The notes under the pieces are model-generated. The model worked only from the letters and a program-made list of their open reading frames with translations, made no database searches and was not told the origin of the DNA. The position numbers were made by a program, and so were the translations under genes. Positions 33,866 to 61,940 of a stretch of DNA of 64,000 bases are shown piece by piece (position 1 is the first letter of the stretch; every line of letters starts with the position of its first letter). This DNA comes from Pseudomonadota bacterium (GTDB taxonomy: Bacteria; Desulfobacterota; Desulfobulbia; Desulfobulbales; JAGXFP01), in assembly GCA_018814305.1 (NCBI GenBank), contig JAHJAA010000022.1:62001-126000 (forward strand). The letters run 5' to 3'.

Positions 33866-33904
33866 ATGTTTGCAGATAACTCTTACATCTGGAGGGAAAA
33901 GTGA
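33866..33904 (+). CDS. Possible 12-residue leader peptide overlapping the ccoN start
   Basis: ATG at 33866, preceded by AAAGGGAAAG, opens a 12-codon frame (MFADNSYIWREK) whose last codon and stop overlap the ccoN GTG. The ccoN ribosome-binding site GGAGGG lies inside it. The arrangement would couple translation of ccoN to the leader. Not proven to be translated. Confidence 0.35.
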   Translation: MFADNSYIWREK

Positions 33905-35313: not shown

Positions 35314-35315
35314 TC

Positions 35316-36191: not shown

Positions 36192-36194
36192 CCA

Positions 36195-36335
36195 ATGGAC
36201 CTTGCTTCGATCCTCTACCTTGGTGTTACCTTCGGACTCTTTGTAATCTTTGTCCTGATCGTTCTTCGCACGTACAGCAAAAAGCGTAAGGATGAGGGTG
36301 AGATTGCCAAGTACCGAATGCTTGATGATGAATAA
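36195..36335 (+). CDS. ccoQ: CcoQ/FixQ-like small membrane subunit
   Basis: A 46-residue protein starting three bases after ccoO. One membrane helix (about 6-26) is followed by a basic YSKKRK stretch and a C-terminal KYRMLDDE. This fits CcoQ, a small stabilising subunit of cbb3 oxidases. The C-terminal motif also occurs in the CcoS protein encoded at 41566 (AKYRMLEDDD). Because of its size it is easily missed. Confidence 0.75.
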   Translation: MDLASILYLGVTFGLFVIFVLIVLRTYSKKRKDEGEIAKYRMLDDE

Positions 36336-36383
36336 TCGCGCCCGAGCGCTGAATTCATGCCATATAAATCGGAGATTCGACAC

Positions 36384-36623
36384 ATGACAACGAAAGATAC
36401 GTTACCCACCGATCAAAACGAACCCTTTGACGGGATCAAGGAGAACAGGGAAACCAGGCCCCCGGCCTACTTTAACTTCCTGTACTATGGTTTGATCCTC
36501 TGGGGCATCATCTTCATGGGCTACTACCTGTTGAGTGGCTGGAGTTCGCACGATGAGTTCCAGGAAAAAATGACCACCCACCAGGAACAGACATCCCAGG
36601 GAATGCAAGGCGGCAAAGAATAA
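36384..36623 (+). CDS. Stand-alone CcoP N-terminal anchor without haem domains
   Basis: A 79-residue protein with one membrane helix. The sequence FDGIKENRETRPPAYFNFLYYGLILWGIIFMGYYLLSGW is the N-terminal FixP_N region of CcoP, but the protein ends about 35 residues later with no CxxCH motif. The start at 36384 has GGAG nine bases upstream; an earlier ATG at 36357 has none. Together with the CcoO fusion it makes a split and reshuffled CcoP. A terminator follows at 36673. Confidence 0.75.
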   Translation: MTTKDTLPTDQNEPFDGIKENRETRPPAYFNFLYYGLILWGIIFMGYYLLSGWSSHDEFQEKMTTHQEQTSQGMQGGKE

Positions 36624-36672
36624 ATCAGGGTGCTCGGATTTATTCGATTCTCTTGAACACTGAATGGTTTGG

Positions 36673-36704
36673 AACCGGGCGGGATCACTCCCGCCCGGTT
36701 TTTT
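36673..36704 (+). terminator. Rho-independent terminator after the cbb3 structural genes
   Basis: Eleven-base perfect stem (AACCGGGCGGG, 36673-36683, with 36690-36700), six-base loop and six T. It separates the ccoNOQP' genes from the ccoG assembly cluster, which therefore likely has its own promoter. Confidence 0.9.
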
Positions 36705-36738
36705 AAACCTCCGGCAGCAAACGACGGGGAGGTTCAAG

Positions 36739-36786
36739 ATGAATGAAAGATACAGACTCAGCTTTGCTCGCTGTTCATGTTCATGA
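36739..36786 (+). CDS. Possible 15-residue leader peptide coupled to ccoG
   Basis: GGGGAGG seven bases upstream of an ATG at 36739 opens a 15-codon frame (MNERYRLSFARCSCS) whose TGA overlaps the ATG at 36783 of ccoG. The ccoG start codons have no ribosome-binding site of their own, so this small frame probably delivers ribosomes to ccoG. Three serines/cysteines close the peptide. Not proven to be a functional peptide. Confidence 0.45.
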   Translation: MNERYRLSFARCSCS

Positions 36787-38024
36787 AAAACCAAACCCAT
36801 TACATAGGCCCACGTCGCCGCTTGTTTCAATGGACGACCACCGTGATTCTCCTGCTGCTCCCCTGGCTGGAAGTTGACGGAAAAAGCCTGCTGCGCCTCG
36901 ACATTGCTGGGCAAAAACTCTACCTGTTCGGCCAGATCCTGCGAATTCAGGAACTGTACCTGGTTCTGCTGGCCACCCTGATTTTCGTGCTCAGCTTCCT
37001 GCTGGTTACCGTGGTCCTTGGCCGAGTCTGGTGCGGCTGGCTCTGCCCTCAAACAACCTTATCGGACCTGGCCGAATGGACGGCAAGACGCCTCGGGCTC
37101 ACCGTCAAACACAATCATCTACACGGTCCCCTCTGGCGTAAGATGCTGGTACAGGGGATCTTTCTCTTCCTTGCTTTTGTGGTGGCGGCCAACCTGCTCT
37201 GGTATTTTATCCCGCCCCGTCATTTTTTTTCTCTTCTACTAAGCCTTGATCTCCACTATGCTGCCTGGATCACCCTGATCGGAACAGGGTTGGTGGTTTA
37301 CCTTGACCTGGCCGTGGTGCGACGGCTGATGTGCCGCGAGTTATGCCCCTACGGCCGAGTCCAAACCGCCCTGGTCGACAAGGCGACCCTCTCGCTGCAC
37401 CTCCCTGGGAGCGAACTTGAACGCTGCCTTGAATGCAACTCCTGCGTGCGGGCCTGCCCCATGGAAATCGACATCCGGGATGGTTATCAGGTGGAGTGCA
37501 CCAATTGCGGGCGCTGCCTTGATGCCTGCCGCAAGGTGATGACCAAGCAAAATGAACCGGGGTTGATCCGCTACACCTTCGGCCTCCATGGGGAGGGCCT
37601 GACCGGACTGCTGAACCCGCGGGTCCTGCTCCCGGTGGTGGCAATTACCGCCCTCCTGGTAACCCTCGGGTTTGCCCTGGTGGACCGACCGGTGGCAACT
37701 TTAAAAATCTCCGTCTCCCATACGGCCGCCACCCGTCAGCTGGAGAATGATCAAATCGGGACTTTTTTCAACGCCTGGATCAACAACCGCAGCCAGGCAA
37801 AAGCCGTGTATACCATGGAGGCCCGACAAAAGGAGTCCAGTGCCCCCTTGCTCCTCAAAGGCCAGGTCCGGGCCGAGCTTACCGCCGGAGAAAACCGACG
37901 CCTGGACTTTTTACTGGTCACCCCAGCCCATGAATTTATTACAGTCGAATTGGTCCTCAAAGACCAGGAAGGGCTTGAACTATCAATCGCCGAAGCCTAT
38001 ATTGGAAAAACTCAAAATGAATAA
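36783..38024 (+). CDS. ccoG: cbb3 oxidase accessory ferredoxin-type protein
   Basis: A 413-residue inner-membrane protein of the CcoG/RdxA family, implicated in reduction of copper for oxidase maturation. Five membrane helices are expected. VWCGWLCPQTTLSDL and CRELCPYGR give the membrane-proximal cysteines, and two 4Fe-4S ferredoxin motifs follow (CLECNSCVRACPMEID, CTNCGRCLDAC). The C-terminal 130 residues are a periplasmic Ig-like domain. The start at 36783 overlaps a leader frame; 36777 is the alternative. It overlaps ccoH by eight bases. Confidence 0.9.
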   Translation: MKNQTHYIGPRRRLFQWTTTVILLLLPWLEVDGKSLLRLDIAGQKLYLFGQILRIQELYLVLLATLIFVLSFLLVTVVLGRVWCGWLCPQTTLSDLAEWTARRLGLTVKHNHLHGPLWRKMLVQGIFLFLAFVVAANLLWYFIPPRHFFSLLLSLDLHYAAWITLIGTGLVVYLDLAVVRRLMCRELCPYGRVQTALVDKATLSLHLPGSELERCLECNSCVRACPMEIDIRDGYQVECTNCGRCLDACRKVMTKQNEPGLIRYTFGLHGEGLTGLLNPRVLLPVVAITALLVTLGFALVDRPVATLKISVSHTAATRQLENDQIGTFFNAWINNRSQAKAVYTMEARQKESSAPLLLKGQVRAELTAGENRRLDFLLVTPAHEFITVELVLKDQEGLELSIAEAYIGKTQNE

Positions 38025-38484
38025 AGTCATGCCACAATCCAAAACAAAGATGTACCCCGCCATGATCATCCTGCTGATCGGTGGTTTTCTCGTCTTTTCG
38101 GCCTGGTCTGCTCGACAGGCCGCCGGGCTCGGGACAAAAGTTACCGATGCGGACTATTACAGCAAAGGCCTGAAATACAATACCTCCCAAGTAGAAAAGC
38201 GGGCGGCCGAGGTCCTCGGCTGGAACCTTGAAACCGGGCTCACCGGACGCGCCCTGGACTTTCATCTCACCGACCGGGATGGCAGCGAAGTAAAGCAAGC
38301 AAACGGCACCCTCTACCTGGCGATTCCCGGCAGAGCCGAGAATATCCACCTCCCTTTGCAGGAAGCCACCAGCGGCCATTACCAGGTCAACCTTGCTGAG
38401 AACATCAGCGGCACGATCCAGGCCCGCCTCGAACTGGAACGCGACGGCGCCCGACTCAACCGGCAACTGCTGCTTAACCTGTAA
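38017..38484 (+). CDS. ccoH: FixH/CcoH family oxidase assembly protein
   Basis: A 155-residue protein with one membrane helix (about 13-32) and a periplasmic domain. The DADYYSKGLKYN motif after the helix is the mark of FixH. The ATG at 38017 overlaps the ccoG stop; an in-frame ATG at 38029 is possible. It would work with CcoG and CcoI in maturation of the cbb3 oxidase. Confidence 0.87.
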   Translation: MNKVMPQSKTKMYPAMIILLIGGFLVFSAWSARQAAGLGTKVTDADYYSKGLKYNTSQVEKRAAEVLGWNLETGLTGRALDFHLTDRDGSEVKQANGTLYLAIPGRAENIHLPLQEATSGHYQVNLAENISGTIQARLELERDGARLNRQLLLNL

Positions 38485-38690
38485 TGTGGCTGGTGATGGC
38501 GAAGATACCTTCTCAGGCGCCTAGAAACGGATGCTGCTGCTCTTTTTTATTCAAGAGATTTCCCGTGGAGACATGGTGACAAAAATGGCCCCACGCTTTT
38601 CATCGTACAGAACATGCCGAAACCAGTTTTTCTTGAGCACTGCACCAGGGGCTGTTTTTCTTTATTCAGAGCTATCAAAAAAGGGCCAAC

Positions 38691-39008
38691 ATGACCAAAA
38701 AGAAATTGAACTGCTGGGAGTTTAAAAAATGCGGTCGAGAGCCAGGCGGCCTCAAAACAGCTGAGTTGGGAATTTGTCCGGCAACAACTGAAAACAGGCT
38801 TGATGGCGTCCATTCCGGTGAAAATGCGGGCCGGGCCTGCTGGGTAGTGGCCGGCACCTACTGCAAAGGTGAAGTGCAGGGAAGTTTTGCTAAAAAATAT
38901 ACGAACTGCAGTCAGTGTGAATTTCACCAGCTTGTCCAACAGGAGGAGGTCCGCTGTTTTAAGAACTCCATTCTGCTCATTAAGAAATTAAGAGATGATG
39001 ACACGTAA
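38691..39008 (+). CDS. Two-CW domain protein
   Basis: A 105-residue cysteine-rich soluble protein. The repeated cysteine-tryptophan pairs (NCWEFKKCGREPGG and RACWVVAGTYCKG) plus CSQCEFH make up the two-CW pattern, known from many anaerobic deltaproteobacteria. Eight or nine cysteines suggest a metal or iron-sulfur site. AAGGG lies before the ATG at 38691. The function of the family is not established; here it lies inside the cbb3 assembly cluster. Confidence 0.8.
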   Translation: MTKKKLNCWEFKKCGREPGGLKTAELGICPATTENRLDGVHSGENAGRACWVVAGTYCKGEVQGSFAKKYTNCSQCEFHQLVQQEEVRCFKNSILLIKKLRDDDT

Positions 39009-39110
39009 CCGCCTTTGCCTGATCGGTAATTTCTGGGCTGCCGTGTCTCCCCAAATCCCTTGTAACGCCCGAGCCCCAAAGAGACCTCTGACTCTTTATC
39101 AACGCCATCC

Positions 39111-41573
39111 ATGATGAACCTCCCTGAAACCTGCATCCACTGCACCCTACCGATTCCACCCTCCGCGCGGGTGATCGACCGGGTGGACGATGAAGAATTG
39201 CATTTCTGCTGCCAGGGATGCCGGGGGGCATATCTCATCATCACCGGGGCCGGGCTTGATTCATTCTATACCAAAAGAAGCTGGGAGACCCCGGGCATTC
39301 CGGAAAACGCCTTTGAAACCATCTACAATGATGAATATTTGGGGGCCTTTACCACGACCAAAGAAAACAGTCGTGAAATTTCAATTATCGTTTCCGGCAT
39401 CCGTTGTTCGGCCTGCATCTGGCTGATCGAATCCATTCTCGCCAAACGTCCTGGTATTATTGAGGCCGTGATCAACTATGGAACCCACCGCGGCCGCATC
39501 CGTTTTGACCCGGACCAAACCTCACCCAGCCAAATTTTTACAGCAATCAGCCGGCTTGGATATGTGCCAAGACCTTTTACTCAGGATGGCGCCCGCCTCC
39601 TCCAGGAAAAGGAAAGCCGTTCCCTGCTGATCCGTTTTGGGACCGCAGCCTTCCTTTCCATGCAACTCATGGGCTATACCCTCGCCCTGTACGGCGGCTA
39701 TTTTAGCGGCATGGACGCCGAAACCCGGCAACTTCTCCAATATTTAGCCGCCCTGGTTGCCACCCCGGTGGTTTTTTACTCCGGGGCTCCCTTTCTCCGG
39801 GGGGCCTTTAGAAGTATCGTCAACAAGGCCCCCAATATGGATCTGCTTATTGCCCTGGGAGTCTTGGCCGCCTATCTCTACAGCCTTGGCGCCATGCTGG
39901 TCGGCCGGGAGGTTTTTTTTGAAACCTCGGCCATGATCATCTCCCTTATCCTGCTAGGCCGGATCTTTGAAAACAGTGCCCGGAAAGCGGCATACAGCGG
40001 GATTGACAAACTGTTGCGCCTCACTCCCGATACCACCCTGCTGCTCCGGGGAGCTGAGACGATTGTGGTCACCAGTGACCAACTGCAGGTTGGCGATACC
40101 ATCCTGGTCGGACCAGGTGACCGGCTCCCGGTTGACGGGGTCCTGCTGGACCAGGAAACCGAAGTGGACGAGTCCGTCCTCACCGGCGAGGCTGAGCCGG
40201 TCCTGAAACGGTTCAACGACACCCTCCTTTCCGGATCAATGAACGTATCGACCTCCGTCCGAGTCCGGGTCAGCCAGCCGGCTGGAAGCTCATTCATGGC
40301 CCGCATCACCAGGATGATCGAAGAGGCGCAGAGCCGCAAGGCCCCGGTCCAGGGGCTGGCCGACCGGGTTGCCGGTACATTTATTCCGGCGGTTATCATC
40401 ATGGCCCTGGCCACGGCCGGATACTGGAGTCTACACAGTGACAATCTGGTTCTGCCGCTCCTGCACGGAATCTCCGTCCTGGTTGTGGCCTGTCCCTGTG
40501 CCCTCGGCCTGGCCACTCCCACCGCAATTCTGGTCGCCACCGGCGTTTCAGCCCGCCATGGCATGCTGTTCCGGGGTGGAGATACCCTGGAAGCCGCAGC
40601 CCGATTGACAGTGGCTGGTTTCGACAAGACCGGAACCCTGACCGAATCATTTCCCGAGGTTATCTCCATTTCGACAATCGACATCACCCCCCAGACCCTG
40701 CTTGCCCTCGCCGCCCGGGCTGAAGCAGGGTCCAGTCATCCCCTGGCCCGGGGCATCCTGGCCAAGGCCCACCAGGAAGGGATCAGAATCTCAGCAGGGG
40801 GCGGAACCATCATCGCCGGCAAAGGGGTGCGACTTACGACGGATGAGACCACTTTGCTGGCCGGCAGTCGCCTTTTCATGGAGGAAAATGCCATCTCCCT
40901 GCCGAAGAATCTCGAGCCAACGGCGCTGACCGAGGTTTTTATTGCCGAGAATGGCCGACACCGCGGGTGCATCTATCTTGACAGCCAGTTAAGGGAGGGC
41001 GCCCGGGCCACTGTGGCAAAGATCTCCAGCCTGGGTCTTTCGACCATGCTGCTGACCGGAGATCATCTCCGTTCCGCCGAGAAGGTGGCAGCTCTTACCG
41101 GCATTGATCAGTATCGCGCCAATATGACTCCAGCCGATAAAACCTCCTGGGTCCAACAGCTCCGGGCAGAGCAGGAGGTGGTCCTGATGGTCGGGGATGG
41201 GGTCAACGACGCCCCGGCCCTGTCGGCGGCCTCGGTGGGCTGTGCCATGGGCGGCGGAACCGATATTGCCCTGGAAATCTCGGACCTGGTCCTGATGCAC
41301 AACGACCTGACCCTGCTTCCTGAAGCGATCCGTCTGGCCCGCCAGACCCTGACGATTATCCGCCAGAATCTCTTCTGGGCCTTTACCTATAACCTGGTGG
41401 CCATTCCGCTGGCCGCCTCCGGCCACCTGGCGCCGGTCTATGCTGCCGCAGCGATGGCCGCAAGCTCGGTCTGCGTGGTGGCCAACTCCCTTCGGCTCAA
41501 GGGATTCCGACCAGAAAAATCGGAACGGCTCGCTCCCACCAACACTGCCCATTTGAGTGAACGCCATGTTTAA
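39111..41573 (+). CDS. ccoI: Copper-transporting P-type ATPase for oxidase assembly
   Basis: An 820-residue P1B-type ATPase. The N-terminus has a cysteine-rich metal-binding segment (CIHC and FCCQGC) typical of CcoI/FixI and a heavy-metal-associated domain with CSAC. Membrane helices follow, with the CPCALG transport site, the phosphorylation site DKTGTLT, the SHPLARG motif and GDGVNDAPAL. It would export copper that is delivered to the cbb3 oxidase. No good ribosome-binding site precedes the ATG at 39111. The stop overlaps the ccoS start. Confidence 0.93.
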   Translation: MMNLPETCIHCTLPIPPSARVIDRVDDEELHFCCQGCRGAYLIITGAGLDSFYTKRSWETPGIPENAFETIYNDEYLGAFTTTKENSREISIIVSGIRCSACIWLIESILAKRPGIIEAVINYGTHRGRIRFDPDQTSPSQIFTAISRLGYVPRPFTQDGARLLQEKESRSLLIRFGTAAFLSMQLMGYTLALYGGYFSGMDAETRQLLQYLAALVATPVVFYSGAPFLRGAFRSIVNKAPNMDLLIALGVLAAYLYSLGAMLVGREVFFETSAMIISLILLGRIFENSARKAAYSGIDKLLRLTPDTTLLLRGAETIVVTSDQLQVGDTILVGPGDRLPVDGVLLDQETEVDESVLTGEAEPVLKRFNDTLLSGSMNVSTSVRVRVSQPAGSSFMARITRMIEEAQSRKAPVQGLADRVAGTFIPAVIIMALATAGYWSLHSDNLVLPLLHGISVLVVACPCALGLATPTAILVATGVSARHGMLFRGGDTLEAAARLTVAGFDKTGTLTESFPEVISISTIDITPQTLLALAARAEAGSSHPLARGILAKAHQEGIRISAGGGTIIAGKGVRLTTDETTLLAGSRLFMEENAISLPKNLEPTALTEVFIAENGRHRGCIYLDSQLREGARATVAKISSLGLSTMLLTGDHLRSAEKVAALTGIDQYRANMTPADKTSWVQQLRAEQEVVLMVGDGVNDAPALSAASVGCAMGGGTDIALEISDLVLMHNDLTLLPEAIRLARQTLTIIRQNLFWAFTYNLVAIPLAASGHLAPVYAAAAMAASSVCVVANSLRLKGFRPEKSERLAPTNTAHLSERHV

Positions 41574-41760
41574 ATCCATCGTTCTCCTCATGCTCCTTGC
41601 CCTCTGCATGGGCACCGCGGCCTGGCTGATCTTTATCTGGTCGGTGAAGAAGGGAGAATATGATGATATTGAGCGGGCCAAGTACCGGATGCTTGAGGAT
41701 GATGACCAACCACCCGCCACCCAGGACGACAATAAAGGGCAGGAGAAGTCAGATCCATGA
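41566..41760 (+). CDS. ccoS: cbb3-type oxidase assembly protein CcoS
   Basis: A 64-residue protein with one membrane helix and the CcoS pattern after it: WSVKKGEYDDIERAKYRML followed by an acidic tail. It overlaps both neighbours (ccoI stop and the next gene's ATGA), so the three are tightly coupled. Required for cofactor insertion into cbb3 oxidases in other bacteria. Confidence 0.88.
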   Translation: MFKSIVLLMLLALCMGTAAWLIFIWSVKKGEYDDIERAKYRMLEDDDQPPATQDDNKGQEKSDP

Positions 41761-42461
41761 GCGAATCATTTTACCTGATGGCCTTTCTGACCGGCTTTCT
41801 CGGCTCCGGCCATTGCTTGGGGATGTGCGGCGGGATTGTCTGCGCCCTCTCCCTTTCCGGGCCGGGACGAAAGGGTGGGCTTCTCTTCCATCTTCTCTAC
41901 AGTTCAGGCCGGCTGGTGACCTATTCTATGATCGGCGCCACCGTCGGCTGGCTCGGCTCGTTGATGGCCTATACCGAAAGTTTTGAAATATACAGCCGTT
42001 GGATCCTGGTCGCCTCCGATCTCTTCATCATCGCCATCGGTCTCGGTACCGCCGGGGTCTTCCGCAAGATCAACCTGATGCAGCTCGAGTTCGCCGGGCC
42101 AATCAAATCCATGACCCGGGCGGTGCGCCGCCTGCAGCATCTCCCCCGGGGAATCGCCGCCCTGCCTCTGGGTCTGCTCTTCGGCTTTCTCCCCTGCGGC
42201 TTTCTCTATGCCATGGCCATCACCGCCGCCCAGACCGCCTCGCCGGTCAAGGGCGGCCTCACCCTGCTGTTCTTCGGTTTCGGCACCGTCCCGGCCCTCT
42301 TGACCTTCGGTTCCGCCGCCCACTTCCTCAGCAATCGCGCCCGCACCTGGATGCTCCGTGGCGCCGGGGTCATGGTAGTGCTGATGGGCCTCTACAACCT
42401 CGGCCGCCATCTCCAGATCATCGGTATTATGCCCGGTGGCAGTTCGGGGTGTTTCTGCTGA
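41757..42461 (+). CDS. SafE/TauE-type (UreH-like) membrane protein
   Basis: A 234-residue, six-helix membrane protein of the group often found next to ccoS and labelled sulfite exporter TauE/SafE or UreH-like. The GSGHCLGMCGG motif in helix one and LPCGFLY in a later helix are its marks; the cysteines suit metal or thiol transport. In cbb3 loci it is thought to help copper supply or export. Coupled to ccoS by ATGA at 41757-41760. No strong terminator was found downstream. Confidence 0.85.
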   Translation: MSESFYLMAFLTGFLGSGHCLGMCGGIVCALSLSGPGRKGGLLFHLLYSSGRLVTYSMIGATVGWLGSLMAYTESFEIYSRWILVASDLFIIAIGLGTAGVFRKINLMQLEFAGPIKSMTRAVRRLQHLPRGIAALPLGLLFGFLPCGFLYAMAITAAQTASPVKGGLTLLFFGFGTVPALLTFGSAAHFLSNRARTWMLRGAGVMVVLMGLYNLGRHLQIIGIMPGGSSGCFC

Positions 42462-45536: not shown

Positions 45537-45918
45537 AGTAAATACTCGGGGGTGAGCTTTTGCACTATTGAATCAGAAGATTCTCCCTCATTTCAATGAA
45601 TAACCCTGTAAGCAATGATTCTATAACAGGGGAAGGGGAGAAAGCAACAGAGATGTATTTTTGGCAAGACTAAAACTGAATTTAGGGGATCAGATAGACA
45701 CTAGGAAAAAGACAGAGAGAAACATGCTTAAAGAGAGCGCTGCCCAAAAAAGTCCGTCCCCCGCAAGAATAAAGCTTGCGGGGGACGGACATATTCATAA
45801 AAAAATCGTTCATCATTTCGTTGTCATTAAAAGCAAGTGCAAGGGTTGGGGGAAAGCCCTTGCTTCATGCTGAGGATCCCACCGGACAGAGGGGTGCCCG
45901 GTGGGATGGAACCAATAC
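45537..45918. other. Intergenic region between the channel gene and the giant cytochrome
   Basis: About 380 bases with no gene that I can support. It holds a strong hairpin with T-run for the minus strand (45746-45790), a second hairpin at 45876-45907 with ten-base arms ATCCCACCGG/CCGGTGGGAT, and a short CCCTGT/ACAGGG dyad near 45611-45641. The promoter of the pentapeptide gene must lie at its left end. Confidence 0.6.
45746..45790 (-). terminator. Terminator hairpin downstream of the giant cytochrome
   Basis: Sixteen-base perfect arms (45752-45767 and 45775-45790, GTCCGTCCCCCGCAAG and its complement) with a seven-base loop; on the minus strand six T follow. The GGGGACGGAC core is also the form of REP sequences mobilised by Y1-type transposases, so the hairpin may be a REP used as a terminator. 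Confidence 0.75.
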
Positions 45919-48900
45919 TTATGGAGCGGTGATTGAGGCCGTTCCGAGCCCGTCACCCAGAGTTGAAGTAACCAGGATGATATTGCCGGTGGAGCAGCTG
46001 CCGGTGTACTCCCACCGTTTGGCCCCGGAGTTGTAGGTCATGCTCTGGACCGTTCCTCCATTGATCTGGACCTTGACCGTACCTGCCGCCTGACTGCCGA
46101 GATGGTAGTCCTCGGTCAGTTTGGTGTAGGCCGCAATGGCACCGGTCCCACAATCCACACTGGTGATCCGAATCTCATCGGTAATATTCGGGAGATCGGT
46201 TCCGAAGACCTTATTGGCAAAAGCCGGTACCGTCACCCAATAGCCTGGAGCGGACGGGGTCCATTGGTTGTAAGGAACGTTCTGATAGCCGCAGAAATTC
46301 CAGGTAGTCCCGTAGCTATCGGTATAGCTGGAGTTACAGCTTGCATAGTTGTTCGAACCATTGACACTGTCGACACCATTCCCTTTATACGCATTCTGAG
46401 GGGCAGAACCACTCTCCGAGTTTTTATTGGAAAGGTAGTACTTCGGATTCCCTGTTTTTAATGCCGGAGAAATAAAATTAAAGAGCACATTAAAGGAACC
46501 TACCGGCTTTCCAGCACTCATGATGATGCCGCTGGTGTCGGTAATCCCTCCACGACCGGGATGGTAACGGTAGACCCAATGCCGGTCGTCTTTACAGGCT
46601 TCTCCCGAAACATTGTCATAGAGAGCTTTACCCTCCAACGCCCCCGGACTACTACAGCCGGCATTATTTTTGCGCTCAATTGCAGCCTCGTTATAAAACG
46701 TTGAGTAATCAAGCGGAATCTGAGGAGTAGTCGTACCCGGATCACTTGCCGGGCCGGTATTTGCAGTCAGAGTATACCCACTGGTCGAATAGGTATCCTG
46801 AACCGTTGCCAGGTTGGCCAGCTCACCAATTCCCGAGGCATGATACGGACGCACCGGTTTGGGTGGCTTGGTCGGGGCGCCGATCATGCCACTCATCATA
46901 TCAGTGGTGTCGTGACAGTTGAAGCAGACCGCCATATCCTGAATTTCAACCGGTGAGCCGGTACCCCCAAGCAGGTTGGGAATGGTGTGGGTGTCCGACA
47001 AGGTCGAGGTAAGCGGCGTATTATAATCGGTCGCCGGTACAAAGCTGAAGGTTTTCAACTCGAAGGCGCCGTCATTATTCTTCATCCGCTCATAGTTGAT
47101 ATGACAGTAGGCACAGGCAACTTGCTCCGGGGCCGCATTCCACTTGGTGGTGTCGACTCGGGCCTCACTGTGGCAATGGACACAGTTACCGCCCTGGGCG
47201 TTATCGCTATAATGATGATACCAGGTCTTCTTCCGACCAGTTTCGATATTGGTGAACATCATATGGCAACCGCCACAGGTGCCGGCCACGATGGGATCCT
47301 TGGTGCCGGAGGTATCCGTGTCATAGGGCATGGTGGCAATCAAGGTCGGCGGCGAGGTATGGCACATGGTGCAATCATTCTTATGCACTTCCACCACCGG
47401 ATCGCCGCTATGGCAGTTGGCACAGGTCTCGGTGGCCAGGGCCGCAAAGGTAACATGACCCAAAGCCGCATGATCCACCGGTCCGCCACCCGAGGTGTCG
47501 GTGACCGCCAAGGTCTTGCTGTCACCACCGGCGGTGGCTGAGTAGACCATAACATTGCCGCCGACAAAGGTCGGAGCCGAATTCCAGGTCAAGGTCAGAG
47601 CCCCGGCCGTACAACCCATGGCGGCTGAAGTCGAACCATTATAATCAACAAGATACGTGTTGCCACAGTCGAGCTGGGCAGATTCGGTGGCCGCCACGGT
47701 CAAGGTCGAGCCGTCATGATCGGCCTGGGTTACGGTGACCACATCAGTTAAGTTGGTCGCAGCCGAACCAAAGGCAGCATAGGTATCACAAGGAGTACCG
47801 GCACCGCTGATCTCAACCGTATTAATGGTGGCGGTATAGGCAATATTGGTAATAGTCGCCTCGTATCGGCTCTGGGCACCGTTCCAGCTCAAGGCCTGTG
47901 AACCACTGCCATTATAGGTGGCGGAGTAGGAACAGACCCCGTCGCCATCGGTATGGGTGGCGGTGACGAAGATCGAGCCCAGGGCAGCGCCATTGCCGTT
48001 GTTAGTCCAGGCGGCTGAGGTAATGGTTACCGCATCGTCAACGGTCGGGGTCGAATCAGACACCGAGTTGTAGGTGACGGAATCACCACCCAGACTGGCA
48101 CAATGGACGGTTACCGAGCTGTTGAAGCCCGGATCAAGACTAACATCGGCATCAACCAGCTCAAGCTGGGTACCGGTCCAGTTCATCGGGTAGTCGGTCG
48201 AGTTATAGGTCGCATAGTAAGCACAACTCCCGTACGGGTTGTCGCCGGCCTCGGTCGCCACCACATTCAACAGCTTGGTGGAATTGTCATAATCCGCAGA
48301 AGAGACCGTAACCACATCGGAAAGATCAGTGACCGTATAGAGCTGGTTGTCACCAACGGCCGTCGGATCCCAGACCCGAAGGGCACCAGGGGTGGTGTTC
48401 AGGGTCAAGCCCTCAAAGGCGACACCCTGGCTCAACCACTTGGACTGGATACCGTTCCAGGTCAGCGGCTCATTAGTCAGGGTCTGATACGTCACGGTAT
48501 AGGTCGGTTCACTCAGACTGTTATCCACCGTAGCGGTCACGATCAAGGTCCCGGTTGCCGCCCCATCACCGCTGGTCACCCAGTCGGAGGTGACCACAGA
48601 CAGGCTGTTGGGAGCCGGACCACCGGCACCTTGAGCGTCATTGACCGCCACAGTCACCGGCAGAGTATTCCCCGCACTAGAGGTAATCGTGATCGTGTCA
48701 CCTGAGGTCCAGGTCGCACTGCCACAATCAATATAGTGTTTGCTGATCGTATCCCAGAGCAAGTTGCCGCTGCAGCCGGTCCCGTCGTAGTTCGAGATAG
48801 ACAGGGTCGCAGCACCAGCCAAGCTATTGGTTGCCTCAATGCTGAGGGTGGTGCCGTCAAACTGCGCCATGACCACCTTGATCACGTCGCCACTGGCCAC

Positions 48901-51900
48901 ATCGGCCCAGCGGGGAACCTCGGTGTAGTTGCCATCGTTACACCAGCCCATCCCGCCAACACAGGGGACGGTAAAGGACAGACTGTAATTCTTGTTGCTC
49001 CAGGGCGCCCCGCCCTTGGCCATTAAAACATCCAGACCGCCACCAAGGTCCTCGTTGCCAGGAACCATTTTAAACCCGCCATCATGTCCGATGTTTTCAG
49101 TATCCTTATTGCCTCCATCGGTATTAGGATTCAGAATGGCGCCAGGGGTTTGATACAGTCGCTGGTTATTGGAACCCTTCCGAACCACCATTGCATCATT
49201 GAACCGTCGAATGCCGGAGGAACCGGTGGCATCCCAGATACCCGGGCCCGGATGGTAATACTGATAGAGCCACGGCATTTCCAGGGCGGAATTAATATCG
49301 TCAAGCCCGTTATTGTAAGCGGCAGGAGCAACCAGACCGAGACCGGGCAACTGGCCGGCGCCAGCATACAGATAGCCCTTGGTCCAATCCCCGGGATAGC
49401 CGTGGAAGGGCTTGATCACCGGCGCAGTATCTGCATTGGGATTCTCACCGGAATGACACTCAAGACAGAAGCGGTAGTCATAGATCGAAATCGAAGAAAC
49501 CCCCGGCTCGTAGACGATGGTATGGCTCGCAACCACTCCAACATAGGGATCGGTCGGATTAGCGGCGTTCAGCTGGGTCAGGTCATAGGCCAAGACCTCC
49601 AACTGTGAACCGGTATCGTTAATATGGCAGGATACGCAGTTCAGCTGCTTGGGGGCCACCATCATGTCCACTGAACCTGAGGCATCATGGCAGGTATCGC
49701 AACGGCCAAGCTGGGCCGCCTCGGTCTTGTGATGATGGAGCTTATGATCCGGAGTGGCATCTGTGTGACACGCAGTGCAGAGATGCGGCTTGGTACCACC
49801 CATGGAATCCCAGGTCGGGATAACATTGGCCGCGCTGCCGATCAGCACGTGATTGGCGGATCCACCCTGGACCGACTCATGGCAGGTCCCACAGCTGCCG
49901 GGATGAACCGTACCGACCACATCGATGGAATGGCAGTTCTGGCAGATCGCCGGGGCAGAGAAATCACCGGTGACATGACCGCCATGATCCAGGTTCGGCA
50001 CCTTATCGGTATGACAGGTCCGGCAATTTTCGCCAGGAACCGGCCCGTTGGCAATCCCTGCAGAGGCGGCAACATCATCAACCGTATTGAAATCACCGTT
50101 GGTGCCGTCGTAGTCATGGCAACGGACACAGCCGTTGGTCAAGGTCTGGCCGGCGTCATGCTCCTGCTTAATCGCTGCCCAGTTGGCCAGATTGGTCCCG
50201 GCGTCATTGTGACAACCGGCAGTACCACAACCCTGCTGGCCGGACTGGGCAGTATCGCCTCCGGCCTCGTCATAGGTGATGCCGGTATGGGTATTGCCGT
50301 AGGTATGGTACTGGAAGTAACCGACCCCATGACAGGTGGTGCAGTTGGACTGGACCCCGATGGTATGCAGGGTCGCATTCCCGAAGGAACCGGCCCGCAG
50401 GGAACCATCATTGACCGGATCCACATGGCAGTTATCACAGGTGTTGATAGAATGGATGGTATCGCGAACCGCAGTGCCGTTGGCCGCGGTATGGCAATTA
50501 TCACAGTCCTTACTGGGAGTGCCGTTCTGATTCCAGTTGGCCAGTTTAGCGTCATGGGTGTCGGTGGCATGGTTACCGAAATCGGCGGCATGGTCGACAT
50601 GGCAGACCAGACAATTGGAGGTCCCGGCAAAGTTATGGTTGAGTGCCCAGCTTTTCAGGGTACCATCGGTGCCTCCGGCCACCACTGTATCGGTATGGCA
50701 GTTGTCACAGGTTCCCTTGTGAATGGTGGGAATAATGTTGACGATTCCATGACAGTTGGTGCACTTGGCCGCGCCACTGGTAGACAGTTCATTATGATCC
50801 GAAAGCCCCACGATATCATGGGCGCCGGCAAAGTCACTAGAGAAGGCGGGATGACAGGTGATACAGCCGCTCTCCTGCCCGACCACGTGGTTGGAAATAG
50901 TGGCAATGGCGGTATCAGCCACGAAACGACCGTCAGTGGTCGGAGTGGTGGTATCAAGGTGACAGAGATCACAAACACTGACCGGAGTGCCGTCATCATG
51001 GATGTCCAAGATGATATCCAGGGTTCCGGCCGGATCATGGCAGGTCGTGCACTTGGCCGACCCAAGACCGGTCAACCGGGCGCTATGGGTCTCACTGGTA
51101 TGGGCCGTAAAGTCGGAACTTAAGGCTACGTGACAGTTGACACAGTCACTGGGCGAACCGACCGTATGATTGGCCCCGGCGCTGCCGATCAACGTCCCGT
51201 TGGTCGTACCGTAACTGGCATTGTGGCAGGTAGTGCAGGTGGCCGAGGCCCCGGTCCCATGGATATCAACCAGAATATCCTTGGTCCCGGCCGGATCGTG
51301 GCAATCAGTACACTTAGCTGAGCTAATCCCGGTGATATTGCTTGCGTGGTTGGCGTCCCGGGTGGTTGTGTTATGGGCCGTGAAGTTGGCCGCAATGGCA
51401 CTATGACACTGGGTACAGTCCTGGGCAACCCCCTTGACATGGGCCGAAGCCGAGTTGATCAGGGTGCCGTCAGAGGCAGTATTATGGCAGTTCTGGCACC
51501 CCAGGCCACCAGCATGCACCACGGTCTGGACGTTGCCCTGATGACACGGAGCCGTCGTACAATTGGTGTTACCCAACAATTTGGCAACGTGAGTTTCGGT
51601 GCCGGCAGTGGCATGGACCGTGGTGGTCCCGTTGAACTCCGAGGTGGCACCGTTATGGCAACCCGTACAGGTGTCAGTGGTTCCGTAAGTATGGTTGGCG
51701 GAACTGGCGCCCGCCTTCATCAGATACCCTGCCCCGCTGTCATGACAGCCGGAACAACCGATGGCCGAATGGATCACCGACTGGATCTCGGTCCCAAGCG
51801 TGTTGGCATGGCAGTCGAGACACTCGGTCTGGTTGCCCAATTGATCATGATCCTTGACGTTATGGGCGCCTGAGACCCCCGCAGCATAAGGGGTATGACA

Positions 51901-54900
51901 GGTACCACAGATGCCGCCGTGACCACCGTTGATGCCCTCATAGTTGACATTGTCTCCCAAGGTGCTGCCGCCGCCAGAGTAATCATGCAGCTGGCCGCCG
52001 CCGCTGGGGCTGAGGTGACAGATACCGCAGTTGTTCGCACCGGTGGGATTCAAGGTGGCATCATTGATGTCGTGGATCGAGTAGATATGGAAATCATTAC
52101 TCTTGGCCCCGGTCTGTCCATAATGGCACGGGGTACAGCTGGTGTCATTATCCACCGCATCAAAGGTATCAAGATCGGGATCATAGTTAGTATGGTCAAT
52201 GTTGCCATGGCCGGTACTTGGGGTCTTTTCCTCATGGCAGGTATCACAGCTGACCGAGGGATCCGGAGTGCTGGGGGCGGTTGCGATTACGTTGCCCACG
52301 CTGGTATAGCCAGTTGAGATGTTGACCGTCCTATTGGATTTATGGCAGGTGTTGCATGGTCCGAAACCGTTGGTGACCACATCATGCTCATCGCGGATGC
52401 CGTTCCAGGTCGTGAGATCAAAGGCATTATGACAGCCGCCGATACCGCAACCCTGTTGCGCCGCCTGGGCCGTGTCATTGTCACCGGTGGTGCCAGCGGA
52501 ACCGTCAAGACCGTTTGGCAGATACCCCACCGTATGGCTCACATAACCGGCATCGGTTCCATGGACATGACTATCAAAATAATCCGAACCATGACACCAA
52601 CTACAGTCACCGCCGTTGGCGGGAATATTACCGGTTCCCCCAGGAGCAACCACCGCTTTCCGGGTACCATCACCATTATGACAGCCGCCGCAGGAATCAT
52701 GGACCTTATCGTCGCTACTATTCACCAGAGAGGCAATCTGCCCGACGCCGAAACCGCCGGTGGCGGTATGGCAGACTCCGGTACAGGCCCCACGCACGGC
52801 AACCTCCTGAGAATGATCCACCGCGGCACTAGCACTATGGATGGTTTCCCAGGTTGAGGTATTGGTATGACAACCGGTGCAGGCGCCGGCCACGACCTGA
52901 TCGGCCTTGGTCAGACCGCTGGACCGCATGGAGCCATCGGTATTATGACAGGTGGCGCAATTGGCATGAACTTGACCAATATATGGTGTGGTGGTCACGG
53001 TATGACACCCATCACAGGTGGCAGTGGTGACCTTGGTGGCATGGCTGACCCCGGCGGCACCGGTATGGATGGAGGCCCACGTCGCATTGTGGCAATCGGC
53101 ACATTCATAGACCCCGTCACCGCCGTTACCGTTGGTGGCACTGCCCTGAAGGGCGCCGCCGTTGGCCAGATCATGGCAGGTGGCACAGCCCAGGGTTTCA
53201 TGCACTTCATTGTTCCCGGTAAAGGGAATGAGTCCGGCAATCCGTGCCGTCCCGGCGCCGCCATAGGCTGTATCATGGCAGGAGGCGGTGGCACAAGAGG
53301 TGGTTACCGATATGGTCGAGGTGGTCACGGTATGATGGCTATGACCGTTAAAGGCAACATGACAGTCCGCACAGGCCCCGGCGCCGCCGGTGGCATCACC
53401 GTTGGGGCCGGACTGCAGGGTACCGTCGGTCTGATGACAGGCTGAACAGCCGGTCCCATGGACCTCACCAACCCCGACAAACGGGGTATTGATGGTATTG
53501 GGAGCCGTGGTATTGGTGCCCGGATCACCGTCATGGCAGGCCACACAAAGGGTAGTCGTCAGAACGCGTGCAGCATGATCCACGGTATGGCTGGCAAAGC
53601 TGCTGTTGCGGGTAGGATGACAGTCGGCACAAGCCGCGCCTACCCCGTTGCCGATGCTGGCATTGGTCCCGGCCGTGGCATCAGAGACCGCGTCAAGCCA
53701 CGGAAATCCGTTAACCGAATCATGACATTTATAACAGGCATTGGGGATATCGGAAATATTGACCTTATGGGTAACCGGGATCACCTCGGAACCGGTAGCC
53801 ACATTATGACAACCCAAGCCGCCAACCCCAGTGGTACAACCACCAGTGTTACGAACAGGAATATACGACCCATTGGTTATGGAGTGATCCACAATCCCAT
53901 GGGTCATCGCGATGATTGCCGCCGGTTTGCTTTGATGACATTCATCACATTCAATCGGCGTAAACAGGGCATCACTGACCACCCGGCTCGAACCATCCTG
54001 CAAACGACTTGAACCATTCCAGGAGTAAATAGCATTGTCGGTCAGAGAATCATAAACCGTCCGTCCAGACTCATTGGCGATAACATTGGTATTGATCGCA
54101 GCTTCGACCCCATGGCAGGTGGAACAGCCATTGGCATGACTGGTGGGATCGGCCACAATTGTTCCATGACATGTCGCACAGACTGTGCCGCTAGCCACAT
54201 CGCCGATAAAGGCGCTGCCATGGCCGGTGGCCTTGAAACCTTCAGGGGCGGTATGACACTGGTTACAATCGGAGCCGTAATGGGTTGGAACCGCACCGGG
54301 AGCCGCCGTAAAAACAGTGGTGGCTGTATGACAGACCTGACAAAGTCCGACCGGGGCTTCCGTGCCGGCTTCCACGGTTGGACGCCGGTCGACGAGTCCG
54401 CCGTATTCACCGCCAAGGGTCGGGTTGGGGGTAAAAAATTTGATATCCCGATACCCGTTGCCATGGGCATTCCACATATAAGAGCGGATCGAGTCACCAT
54501 AGATGACCCCGAAGGTCACGCCGCTGGACGCGCCGGTCATATTCCCCTTGACCTTGATCACATTCCCGGACACCCCGATAATCTCGTAGGTCTCCCTGGG
54601 GCCGCTATCAGGAAACGCCAAAATGAGCCCGCGCGAACCATCGGTCGCCTTGGCCTCATCGGCATTGCCGCTTTTATTATACCAACTGGCTGGAATGTTG
54701 AAATCTGGATCATTGGCAACTACAGAGCCGAAACCAATGGTGGTGTAGTTCCCGCCGATATTATAATCCAAGGCGCCCAGCCCGGTATTAAAGTCGCCGG
54801 TGGCAAGATACAGGTTGGGATCAGTGAGCCAGTCCAGTTGCCCCTGATAATGGGGATCATGACATTCGGTACACTGGGTACTCCAGGTGCCATGACTGGT

Positions 54901-55200
54901 GTCGGTGGTGGAACTGGCATGAACCGCCTTGGCTGGTCCCTTCAGGGGAGTCACCGAAGCCGGATCATGACAGCCGAGACAGATCGCGTTGTGGGTGGTC
55001 GCATCCGGATTGGTTGGGTCATCCGGATCCTGCAGGTTGGTCCACCACCAGGCTGAATTAGTATGGCAGGTATAGCAATAGATACCGTTGCTTTCATTAT
55101 GCGGAGCATCTAAATAATATGCTCCGACTGCAGAGCGCGGTAGAAAGAAAATCGCAACAATGACCGTTGCCAGTAGGAACGGGTAACGCTGGTTCATCAT
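45919..55200 (-). CDS. Giant multiheme c-type cytochrome (CxxCH/CxxxxCH family)
   Basis: A 3093-residue secreted protein. A signal peptide (about 1-26, ending SAVGAYYLD) precedes an array of haem motifs. By eye I count about 56 CxxCH and four CxxxxCH (for example CATASCH, CGIGGCH, CTTAPCH, CGTAGCH), plus one CxxxCH. Most lie in residues 35-1915 and 2595-2770. Between them (about 1915-2595) is a haem-free region of repeated beta-sandwich-like segments, and the last 330 residues also lack haems. Such proteins in Geobacter-like bacteria are thought to carry electrons to extracellular acceptors. GAGGGGG precedes the ATG. A TTGACA/TACTAT promoter lies 186 bases upstream. Confidence 0.93.
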   Translation of the reverse strand: MMNQRYPFLLATVIVAIFFLPRSAVGAYYLDAPHNESNGIYCYTCHTNSAWWWTNLQDPDDPTNPDATTHNAICLGCHDPASVTPLKGPAKAVHASSTTDTSHGTWSTQCTECHDPHYQGQLDWLTDPNLYLATGDFNTGLGALDYNIGGNYTTIGFGSVVANDPDFNIPASWYNKSGNADEAKATDGSRGLILAFPDSGPRETYEIIGVSGNVIKVKGNMTGASSGVTFGVIYGDSIRSYMWNAHGNGYRDIKFFTPNPTLGGEYGGLVDRRPTVEAGTEAPVGLCQVCHTATTVFTAAPGAVPTHYGSDCNQCHTAPEGFKATGHGSAFIGDVASGTVCATCHGTIVADPTSHANGCSTCHGVEAAINTNVIANESGRTVYDSLTDNAIYSWNGSSRLQDGSSRVVSDALFTPIECDECHQSKPAAIIAMTHGIVDHSITNGSYIPVRNTGGCTTGVGGLGCHNVATGSEVIPVTHKVNISDIPNACYKCHDSVNGFPWLDAVSDATAGTNASIGNGVGAACADCHPTRNSSFASHTVDHAARVLTTTLCVACHDGDPGTNTTAPNTINTPFVGVGEVHGTGCSACHQTDGTLQSGPNGDATGGAGACADCHVAFNGHSHHTVTTSTISVTTSCATASCHDTAYGGAGTARIAGLIPFTGNNEVHETLGCATCHDLANGGALQGSATNGNGGDGVYECADCHNATWASIHTGAAGVSHATKVTTATCDGCHTVTTTPYIGQVHANCATCHNTDGSMRSSGLTKADQVVAGACTGCHTNTSTWETIHSASAAVDHSQEVAVRGACTGVCHTATGGFGVGQIASLVNSSDDKVHDSCGGCHNGDGTRKAVVAPGGTGNIPANGGDCSWCHGSDYFDSHVHGTDAGYVSHTVGYLPNGLDGSAGTTGDNDTAQAAQQGCGIGGCHNAFDLTTWNGIRDEHDVVTNGFGPCNTCHKSNRTVNISTGYTSVGNVIATAPSTPDPSVSCDTCHEEKTPSTGHGNIDHTNYDPDLDTFDAVDNDTSCTPCHYGQTGAKSNDFHIYSIHDINDATLNPTGANNCGICHLSPSGGGQLHDYSGGGSTLGDNVNYEGINGGHGGICGTCHTPYAAGVSGAHNVKDHDQLGNQTECLDCHANTLGTEIQSVIHSAIGCSGCHDSGAGYLMKAGASSANHTYGTTDTCTGCHNGATSEFNGTTTVHATAGTETHVAKLLGNTNCTTAPCHQGNVQTVVHAGGLGCQNCHNTASDGTLINSASAHVKGVAQDCTQCHSAIAANFTAHNTTTRDANHASNITGISSAKCTDCHDPAGTKDILVDIHGTGASATCTTCHNASYGTTNGTLIGSAGANHTVGSPSDCVNCHVALSSDFTAHTSETHSARLTGLGSAKCTTCHDPAGTLDIILDIHDDGTPVSVCDLCHLDTTTPTTDGRFVADTAIATISNHVVGQESGCITCHPAFSSDFAGAHDIVGLSDHNELSTSGAAKCTNCHGIVNIIPTIHKGTCDNCHTDTVVAGGTDGTLKSWALNHNFAGTSNCLVCHVDHAADFGNHATDTHDAKLANWNQNGTPSKDCDNCHTAANGTAVRDTIHSINTCDNCHVDPVNDGSLRAGSFGNATLHTIGVQSNCTTCHGVGYFQYHTYGNTHTGITYDEAGGDTAQSGQQGCGTAGCHNDAGTNLANWAAIKQEHDAGQTLTNGCVRCHDYDGTNGDFNTVDDVAASAGIANGPVPGENCRTCHTDKVPNLDHGGHVTGDFSAPAICQNCHSIDVVGTVHPGSCGTCHESVQGGSANHVLIGSAANVIPTWDSMGGTKPHLCTACHTDATPDHKLHHHKTEAAQLGRCDTCHDASGSVDMMVAPKQLNCVSCHINDTGSQLEVLAYDLTQLNAANPTDPYVGVVASHTIVYEPGVSSISIYDYRFCLECHSGENPNADTAPVIKPFHGYPGDWTKGYLYAGAGQLPGLGLVAPAAYNNGLDDINSALEMPWLYQYYHPGPGIWDATGSSGIRRFNDAMVVRKGSNNQRLYQTPGAILNPNTDGGNKDTENIGHDGGFKMVPGNEDLGGGLDVLMAKGGAPWSNKNYSLSFTVPCVGGMGWCNDGNYTEVPRWADVASGDVIKVVMAQFDGTTLSIEATNSLAGAATLSISNYDGTGCSGNLLWDTISKHYIDCGSATWTSGDTITITSSAGNTLPVTVAVNDAQGAGGPAPNSLSVVTSDWVTSGDGAATGTLIVTATVDNSLSEPTYTVTYQTLTNEPLTWNGIQSKWLSQGVAFEGLTLNTTPGALRVWDPTAVGDNQLYTVTDLSDVVTVSSADYDNSTKLLNVVATEAGDNPYGSCAYYATYNSTDYPMNWTGTQLELVDADVSLDPGFNSSVTVHCASLGGDSVTYNSVSDSTPTVDDAVTITSAAWTNNGNGAALGSIFVTATHTDGDGVCSYSATYNGSGSQALSWNGAQSRYEATITNIAYTATINTVEISGAGTPCDTYAAFGSAATNLTDVVTVTQADHDGSTLTVAATESAQLDCGNTYLVDYNGSTSAAMGCTAGALTLTWNSAPTFVGGNVMVYSATAGGDSKTLAVTDTSGGGPVDHAALGHVTFAALATETCANCHSGDPVVEVHKNDCTMCHTSPPTLIATMPYDTDTSGTKDPIVAGTCGGCHMMFTNIETGRKKTWYHHYSDNAQGGNCVHCHSEARVDTTKWNAAPEQVACAYCHINYERMKNNDGAFELKTFSFVPATDYNTPLTSTLSDTHTIPNLLGGTGSPVEIQDMAVCFNCHDTTDMMSGMIGAPTKPPKPVRPYHASGIGELANLATVQDTYSTSGYTLTANTGPASDPGTTTPQIPLDYSTFYNEAAIERKNNAGCSSPGALEGKALYDNVSGEACKDDRHWVYRYHPGRGGITDTSGIIMSAGKPVGSFNVLFNFISPALKTGNPKYYLSNKNSESGSAPQNAYKGNGVDSVNGSNNYASCNSSYTDSYGTTWNFCGYQNVPYNQWTPSAPGYWVTVPAFANKVFGTDLPNITDEIRITSVDCGTGAIAAYTKLTEDYHLGSQAAGTVKVQINGGTVQSMTYNSGAKRWEYTGSCSTGNIILVTSTLGDGLGTASITAP

Positions 55201-60053: not shown

Positions 60054-61940
60054 ATGAAAAAAATGATTCTTTTGGCAGGTGTCCTGGCAGTTGCTTCAGC
60101 CGCCCTTTCAGGCTGCAGTGGGGGCGGGGGGGGTGACAACACTCCGCCAACCTCCACCGGACAGCCGGATCTTGATGTAAAGGCGGCCCGGATCGAGTTC
60201 GGCAACGTGACCCAGGGAGCCACGACCAGCAACTCCCTGACCATCACCAATAACGGCACCGGGGAGCTAACCATCAGCGGCATCTCGGCCCCCAGTTCGC
60301 CTTTTTCAATCTCCAGTGACCAGTGCACCGGGACCGTGGCGGCCGGGGGAAATTGCACGGTCACAGTGGCCTATACCCCAAGTACCACCGGGAGTCACAC
60401 CTCGGCCATGATCATCAGTTCCGATGATGCGGATTACAGTTCCCTGAGTGTCGACCTGCTCGGCAGCGCCGGAGATCTGACCCTGGTCAATATGCCGGGG
60501 ACCCAGCCCGGCAAGGCCGGGGCCATTGAGGGTGTTGCCCAATGTCTCTCCTGCCATGGCGGGGTCGACAGCGGGGTGGGTGGCGTGCCGGACGGCATTG
60601 CCGAAGGCCCCTATGATACCTGGAAAACATCCATGATGTCCATGGCGGCCAAGGACCCCCTCTACTGGGCGCTGGTGGCGGTTGAAAACAAATTATTTGC
60701 CAGTAAAGGCGTAGCCATCGGTGACTATTGTCTCCGTTGTCATGTTCCCAAAGGCTGGCTCGAAGAACGCTCGGAACCGGCCACCGGTTCCGCCTTTTTA
60801 CCCGATGATCTCAATGGGGTGCTCTGTGATGTGTGCCACCGCATGGTGGATCCGACCTCAACGGAGGGCCTCGCCTTGACCGAGGAGGATGTGGAGACCT
60901 ACCGGAACGCCCAATACGTGGTGGCTTCTCCGGTAAGCGGCAAAGATGTTAAACGTGGCCCCTATGAAGTTACTACTTTCAACGGTAAGCACGACACCGC
61001 CAAATCAGACTTTCATCTCACCTCCGAATTTTGTGGCACCTGTCACGAGATCACCAACCCTTTCTACAACAACACGGTCATGGTGGAAAAAACCTATACC
61101 GAGTGGAAAAACTCATCGTATCCCGCGGAAGGCACCCAGTGCCAGACCTGCCATATGCCTCGGGTAACCGGTTATGCCTCGGTTTTCTTAAATCCCCTCA
61201 GGGACGATATCGGGTTACATAATTTTTCCGGCGGTAATACCTGGGCGCCTTACGCTGTAGCCGCCTTTGACCCCAGTATGCCTGCCTCCTATGCGACCAC
61301 CTCCAGCGCCCGAGCCCAGAGCATGCTGGAGACAGCCGCCACCCTGGAGGGTTCTTCCGACGGGACCACGCTCACCATCAAAGTAACGAACAACTCCGGC
61401 CATAAACTACCCACCGGGTTTACGGAAGGGCGACGTATGTGGATCAATGTCAAATTTTATGACACCAGTGGAGTCATGGTTTCAGAACTTGGAGGGTATG
61501 ACGAAACCACCGCCACCCTCTCCTCGGCAGGCACCACCGTTTATGAAGCCAACCCCGGCACCAAGGACATAGACGGTTTCGCCGATGAACCGAGTTTCCA
61601 CTTTGCCTTGAACAACCATATGTACAAAGACAACCGGATCCCGCCCAAGGGTTTTACCAACAGCGGTTTTGAGGCCAACGGAGCGCACATCGTCGGAGCG
61701 ACCTATGCCGACGGACAGAACTTCGATACCGTAACCTATACCGTACCGGCAAATGCAAAGACGGCGGAGGTCTCTTTAAAATATCAGACCACCTCCAAGG
61801 AATTTATTGAATTCCTGCGGGATGAAAACCTCAACAATCCATACGACGTCAAGAATGCCGGTGCCCAGATCTATACCATCTGGGAAAATACCGGGAAAGC
61901 GACTCCGGCCACCATGGGGACCATTACCGTTAATCTCTAG
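60054..61940 (+). CDS. Multiheme c-type cytochrome lipoprotein with choice-of-anchor D-like domain
   Basis: A 628-residue lipoprotein. The signal peptide ends in a lipobox with the cysteine at residue 21 (AALSGC), followed by a glycine-rich linker. An Ig-like choice-of-anchor D domain (about 40-140, FGNVTQGATTSNSLTI) precedes five CxxCH motifs (CLSCH, CLRCH, CDVCH, CGTCH, CQTCH), and the last 210 residues are haem-free beta structure. It probably sits at the outer membrane and takes part in electron transfer together with other cytochromes. AAGGAGAA lies before the ATG. A strong terminator follows. Confidence 0.9.
   Translation: MKKMILLAGVLAVASAALSGCSGGGGGDNTPPTSTGQPDLDVKAARIEFGNVTQGATTSNSLTITNNGTGELTISGISAPSSPFSISSDQCTGTVAAGGNCTVTVAYTPSTTGSHTSAMIISSDDADYSSLSVDLLGSAGDLTLVNMPGTQPGKAGAIEGVAQCLSCHGGVDSGVGGVPDGIAEGPYDTWKTSMMSMAAKDPLYWALVAVENKLFASKGVAIGDYCLRCHVPKGWLEERSEPATGSAFLPDDLNGVLCDVCHRMVDPTSTEGLALTEEDVETYRNAQYVVASPVSGKDVKRGPYEVTTFNGKHDTAKSDFHLTSEFCGTCHEITNPFYNNTVMVEKTYTEWKNSSYPAEGTQCQTCHMPRVTGYASVFLNPLRDDIGLHNFSGGNTWAPYAVAAFDPSMPASYATTSSARAQSMLETAATLEGSSDGTTLTIKVTNNSGHKLPTGFTEGRRMWINVKFYDTSGVMVSELGGYDETTATLSSAGTTVYEANPGTKDIDGFADEPSFHFALNNHMYKDNRIPPKGFTNSGFEANGAHIVGATYADGQNFDTVTYTVPANAKTAEVSLKYQTTSKEFIEFLRDENLNNPYDVKNAGAQIYTIWENTGKATPATMGTITVNL

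Follow-up and report, generated by a model that had tools for sequence, protein, structure and literature searches.

A predicted giant exported multiheme c-type cytochrome and its family of N-domain relatives in Desulfobulbales

The window, as we call the whole stretch of 64,000 nucleotides analysed here, contains an open reading frame of 3,093 amino acids on the minus strand (55200 to 45919), starting with ATG and free of internal stops. The first-pass annotation had described it, with the strand unstated, as a giant c-type cytochrome with about 56 CxxCH motifs. The exact number in the minus-strand frame is 56; one CxxxCH (residue 806) and four CxxxxCH motifs (residues 637, 919, 1215 and 1659) bring the total to 61 plausible heme sites, and there is one orphan CX8CH at residues 455-465. 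The other five reading frames of the same ORF contain no CxxCH, and 200 composition-preserving shuffles of the protein yielded 0.32 chance motifs on average and 2 at most. The possibility that the frame is interrupted, raised in the same annotation, was checked in the whole assembly, where the frame is unbroken and lies inside contig C73 (183,514 bases). The mature chain has a predicted mass of ~317 kDa without heme and a pI of 5.0.

The first 26 residues (55123..55200, minus strand) read as a Sec-type signal peptide, MMNQRYPFLLATVIVAIFFLPRSAVG, followed by AYYL. The cleavage site, SAVG/AYYL, was judged by eye and falls in the region previously described as a GAYYL signal-peptide end. It contains no cysteine and hence no lipobox, so the protein is not classed as a lipoprotein. 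Several CxxCH-type motifs on one exported chain, the defining feature of a multiheme c-type cytochrome, are thus present, the Sec-type signal being read by eye. The start codon is ATG-1 or ATG-2, with a ribosome-binding site, GAGAGGGGG, just 5' of the start. An intrinsic terminator (45752..45790, minus strand), formed by a 16-bp stem with 12 G-C pairs and a T6 tail, is situated ~130 nt past the stop codon; it was the one terminator found in a scan for which shuffled sequences gave a mean of 0.6 (s.d. 0.9). The nearest same-strand gene upstream starts ~0.86 kb away. Since the gene has its own ribosome-binding site before the start and a strong terminator after the stop, it probably has its own transcript. 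No DNA tandem repeats were found in the window, and no Rfam elements in the upstream region searched.

The gene seems to be isolated: in ten relative loci nothing matched the window's neighbour genes, and no other cytochrome was observed beside the giant gene in five relative loci viewed gene by gene. A second cytochrome, noted earlier as a nearby lipoprotein, does exist (60054..61940, plus strand; 628 aa, five CxxCH, an LSGC lipobox and a choice-of-anchor D domain) and has a weak ExtKL-like match, below the cut-off. However, it is a separate gene on the opposite strand, ~4.9 kb off, and shares no operon with the giant gene. Elsewhere in the window (33901-42461, plus strand) there are cytochrome-oxidase-like genes (cbb3-type subunits by eye), together with a frame resembling heavy-metal ATPases and a DsbD-like protein (Pfam DsbD_2). 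This set of genes suggests some oxygen use.

Five regions follow one another in the mature protein. The N-domain (residues 27-340; 54181..55122, minus strand, as are all regions below) contains motifs at residues 42, 74 and 110, a heme-free beta insert at ~127-241 and further motifs at 287 and 312. Its signature is DAPHN..C..CH...WW / F..IYG /.KFF / C..CH. The main heme array (residues 341-1930; 49411..54180) accounts for 50 of the 61 motifs, arranged as imperfect ~85-residue repeats of three motifs each. Together with those of the N-domain this makes 55 motifs in residues 27-1930, a segment with 129 histidines, enough for bis-His ligation. The array is followed by a heme-free, Ser/Thr/Gly-rich, presumably beta region (residues 1931-2585; 47446..49410), which opens with a YYHPG...RRF module also seen in relatives and in which no Pfam domain was found at E<=1e-3. 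A second heme cluster (residues 2586-2770; 46891..47445) has six CxxCH (2593-2759). The C-terminal heme-free region (residues 2771-3093; 45922..46890) partly parallels the module after the first array, and inspection by eye revealed no transmembrane or sorting signal in it. Overall, heme-free sequence with much Ser, Thr and Gly makes up about one third of the chain.

An iterated repeat profile recovers ~20 to 24 copies of the imperfect three-motif unit. The spacing of every third motif is more regular than in shuffles at residues 1120-1780 (p=0.016; several ranges and step sizes were tried, of which this is one), whereas over the whole array (280-1930) it is no more regular than in shuffled sequences (p 0.68). 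Thus the ~85-residue repeat rests better on the sequence profile than on the spacing. One array alignment (A2) was dropped, as overlapping windows of one protein spoiled its register.

The array repeat profile was compared with solved structures. The best match was 3ov0 (4.6e-17), a cytochrome c family protein that we take to be the extended dodecaheme GSU1996 of Geobacter, followed by chains of the OmcA/MtrC family (1.4e-16). CxxCH-rich sequences cross-match through this motif, so the ranking is a lead and not a proof of fold. A single sequence of the array and the N-domain profile found nothing among the solved structures. GSU1996, an elongated chain of repeated three-heme domains, may be similar in build; however, it has 12 hemes, and the giant protein has no match at E<=1e-3 to TIGR04257, the c(7)-type triheme "nanowire" domain model. 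The decaheme OmcA/MtrC family, the close second, has in common with the giant protein a match to the Pfam model of MtrC/MtrF domain II/IV. On the other hand, the giant protein has far more hemes and no lipobox, and scores 34.8 bits against the TIGR03507 cut-off of 209.3, which leaves it outside that family. The CxxxxCH/CxxCH domain model TIGR01904 likewise gave no match in the protein at E<=1e-3.

Structure prediction by segments, which had been proposed as a check, reached higher confidence in one part. AlphaFold2 was run on the N-domain (alignment A4, 22 rows) and on about five array repeats (alignment A3, 28 rows). The N-domain beta insert taken alone mostly has pLDDT of 70-85, but the mean pLDDT values of the two models, 46 and 47 respectively, are too low to read the geometry of a heme chain. 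Foldseek and VIA-align searches with the N-domain retrieved generic small beta-barrels (best E 0.045; Z ~6 on 76 residues), which we consider uninformative, and the low-confidence array model had no Foldseek match.

The N-domain, of about 300 residues and with a beta insert, defines a family without a name. Twenty-two proteins could be aligned (A4), with 30-40% identity and invariant cysteines and histidines. The giant protein fits this family, being 30-40% identical to the 21 others; its profile match in its own genome has E 3.9e-115, a value obtained with the window sequence as part of the profile. An N-domain profile (A1) identified 23 loci in genome contigs, all titled as metagenome assemblies of Deltaproteobacteria, Desulfobacterales or Desulfobulbaceae, and profile A4 had matches at E<=1e-15 in 41 of the 258 genomes of the window's order. 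The closest N-domains (L027-L029) show 39-43% identity in their best-matching segment; two of these proteins (L028 and L029) have 48-49 motifs followed by Calx-beta domains. Relatives have domains of types characteristic of surface proteins, namely Calx-beta (13 stretches in one protein), Big_9, cadherin-like, Ig or fn3. A second copy of the N-terminus, 76% identical over 45 residues and cut by the contig start, was found in the same genome as the giant gene (G000:C24; L080 1-136, minus strand). The genome thus probably holds a paralog, the body of which is unassembled.

The number of motifs in the members read varies from 11 to at least 264. At the lower end is a protein of ~614 residues with 11 motifs (L041); other members have 69 (L036) and 74 motifs, the latter in a genome (G003) of the same family as that of the window. 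The short relatives with 11 motifs at L086 (5383-11988, minus strand) and L087 (5335-11729, minus strand) adjoin cytochromes with 13 and 12 motifs, and possibly form conduit gene clusters with them. Three large counts come from one genome, G023. A complete frame of 4,471 residues with the same N-domain has 112 motifs (C22; L116 2631-16043, plus strand). A frame on C176 (L023, 2-17089, plus strand) is open over at least 5,696 residues and has 178 motifs. Finally, a frame on C173 (L021/L022, contig bases 3-25424, minus strand), with the N-domain present and the frame cut by the contig end, has at least 8,474 residues and at least 264 heme motifs (252 CxxCH, 10 CxxxCH and 2 CxxxxCH). A frame of 5,814 residues in G013 holds runs of unknown bases and was left out as a size record.

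The C173 and C176 proteins, 69% identical over 5.3 thousand residues, contain tandem units of ~324 residues and 12 hemes with near-constant motif spacing. The recurring spacings are 32-23-23-40-20-34-32-17-28-27-17-31, with small variations. In 20 such units, 52-83% identical to each other, 24 cysteines (all motif cysteines) and 27 histidines are kept at 90% or more. Thus each unit has at least twelve conserved histidines beyond those of the motifs, so that two are available to each heme. The divergence between units speaks against a recent assembly collapse; the real number of copies may nevertheless be different. The giant protein of the window contains pieces of this unit without a clean 12-heme repeat. 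As regards its own gene, an assembly artefact is ruled out by the intact frame, the divergent repeats and the many relatives.

Taken together, motif count, signal peptide, intact frame, histidine supply, terminator and conserved relatives agree, and support the earlier reading of the ORF as encoding a giant exported multiheme c-type cytochrome.

Other cytochromes are encoded by the same genome. Just past the window end (C73:126651-131923; L091 651-5923) are two OmcA/MtrC-like decaheme lipoproteins, one of them above the curated cut-off for the family (C73:129725-131923) and the other a weaker relative (C73:126651-128999). Adjacent cytochromes with 16 and 26 hemes match doubled CxxCH models (C73:20713-23843; L089 713-3843, minus strand); the same counts, 26 and 16, occur side by side in a SEEP-SRB1 operon for which interspecies electron transfer has been proposed (PMC5539420). 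Further candidate multiheme proteins, some of them OmcS-like at the N-terminus by eye, are present, as are GspD and cytochrome c assembly proteins. No MtrB/PioB-type porin was found in this genome.

The giant protein had been placed at the extreme end of what is known for cytochromes. It is large, but its 61 motifs are within the published range. Single chains with 58, 69 and 86 motifs have been described (PMC7096707), an 86-motif cytochrome is expressed in Desulfuromonas acetexigens under extracellular electron transfer conditions (PMC12133095), a 113-heme cytochrome is known from Methanoperedenaceae Mn-2 (PMC7327174), and a 2024 survey mentions neighbourhoods of genes holding more than a hundred motifs (PMC11475568). 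Among the relatives, the complete C22 frame has 112 motifs, and the incomplete C173 frame, with at least 264, has more than twice 113, the largest count found in open-licence papers. In the same literature we found neither the N-domain family nor the 12-heme tandem unit nor a count of at least 264. The D. acetexigens cytochrome (PMC12133095) is similar by description, as a single high-molecular-weight Desulfobacterota chain with many motifs, although with 86 rather than 61. The Mn-2 protein and the ANME S-layer cytochromes (PMC7327174, PMC9012536) are, again by description, multiheme chains of very large size to which a role in extracellular transfer is ascribed; however, they are archaeal and, in ANME types A and B, fused to the S-layer.

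Regarding function, we moderately favour a secreted, surface-located protein that serves as a single-chain redox wire and electron reservoir in extracellular electron transfer. This is the best fit because of the export signal, the dense conserved heme array, the surface-type domains in the relatives and the genome rich in electron transfer proteins. The surface location and the physiological partner are inferred, as are the steps of heme loading, docking and conduction, for which we propose the following course. The chain would be exported by Sec and receive heme at ~61 motifs. It would then cross the outer membrane, possibly via type II secretion, and the N-domain may attach it to the cell itself or to a porin-cytochrome conduit. 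Electrons would pass along the repeated heme array from one heme to the next, covering tens of nanometres, and mineral, matrix or partner cells may be bound by the C-terminal parts rich in beta structure. Against a surface wire are the missing lipobox or anchor, the lack of MtrB/PioB in the genome, the stand-alone gene, and the low-confidence models in which the heme chain is unseen. The extracellular role suggested by the first-pass annotation is plausible and finds support in the context, namely in the contig, which also encodes cytochromes of the OmcA/MtrC family and of the doubled-CxxCH type, and in the Calx-beta, cadherin and Ig domains of the relatives.

One alternative, which we regard as rather unlikely, is an electron capacitor, in which the hemes mainly serve to hold charge, whether periplasmic or at the surface, as long as the acceptor is out of reach, and a continuous path is unneeded. 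Sixty-one hemes could hold ~61 electrons per chain, the wide variation in motif number between relatives would be tolerable for storage, and no anchor or conserved partner gene was found. However, the nearly constant spacing of hemes within the relatives' 12-heme units points to a fixed geometry, beyond what storage requires, and the relatives carry adhesion-type domains. These domains, with up to 13 Calx-beta stretches, and the heme-free third of the chain would also suit a structural or adhesive matrix protein, with hemes for local contact to mineral or partner cells and short-range electron movement. This seems improbable, as dense heme arrays are kept in many relatives and the array dominates in the ones richest in hemes. 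Still less probable is that the gene is unexpressed, or the protein incompletely matured, in nature. Whether such proteins receive a full heme set has been left open (PMC7096707), but selection is indicated by the intact 9.3-kb frame with its ribosome-binding site and terminator, by the conserved N-domain and by the many relatives that have diverged. A redox enzyme acting, for example, on nitrite, sulfite or hydroxylamine can almost be dismissed: multiheme reductases are also CxxCH-rich and rank low among the profile hits, but no catalytic family matched above a curated cut-off, and the invariant histidines in the clean units of the relatives suffice for two per heme, so that no open heme is needed.

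Returning to the redox wire, a published ratio is ~27 hemes per 200 A (PMC7096707). By extrapolation, 61 hemes would span ~45 nm, and the largest relative ~0.2 micrometre without polymerisation. The cytochrome nanowires known so far arise by polymerisation of small units. The OmcS and OmcE nanowires have in common with the giant protein the long-range heme-to-heme transport proposed for the latter; however, they consist of many small cytochromes, whereas here many hemes are on one polypeptide. We tentatively suggest, as one possibility, that the N-domain proteins are a family of single-polypeptide wires in which tandem duplication of heme modules determines the length, from 11 hemes up to at least 264 (with 12-heme units in the largest), with a common N-domain anchor and adhesive ends. 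If this is true, one gene would make a whole wire, its length would be tunable by module duplication, and the family would provide a simple genetic system for relating transport to heme number. The highest heme number known for a single chain would rise well above 113, and the family would point to an unrecognised electron-transfer route in bacteria of the window's order.
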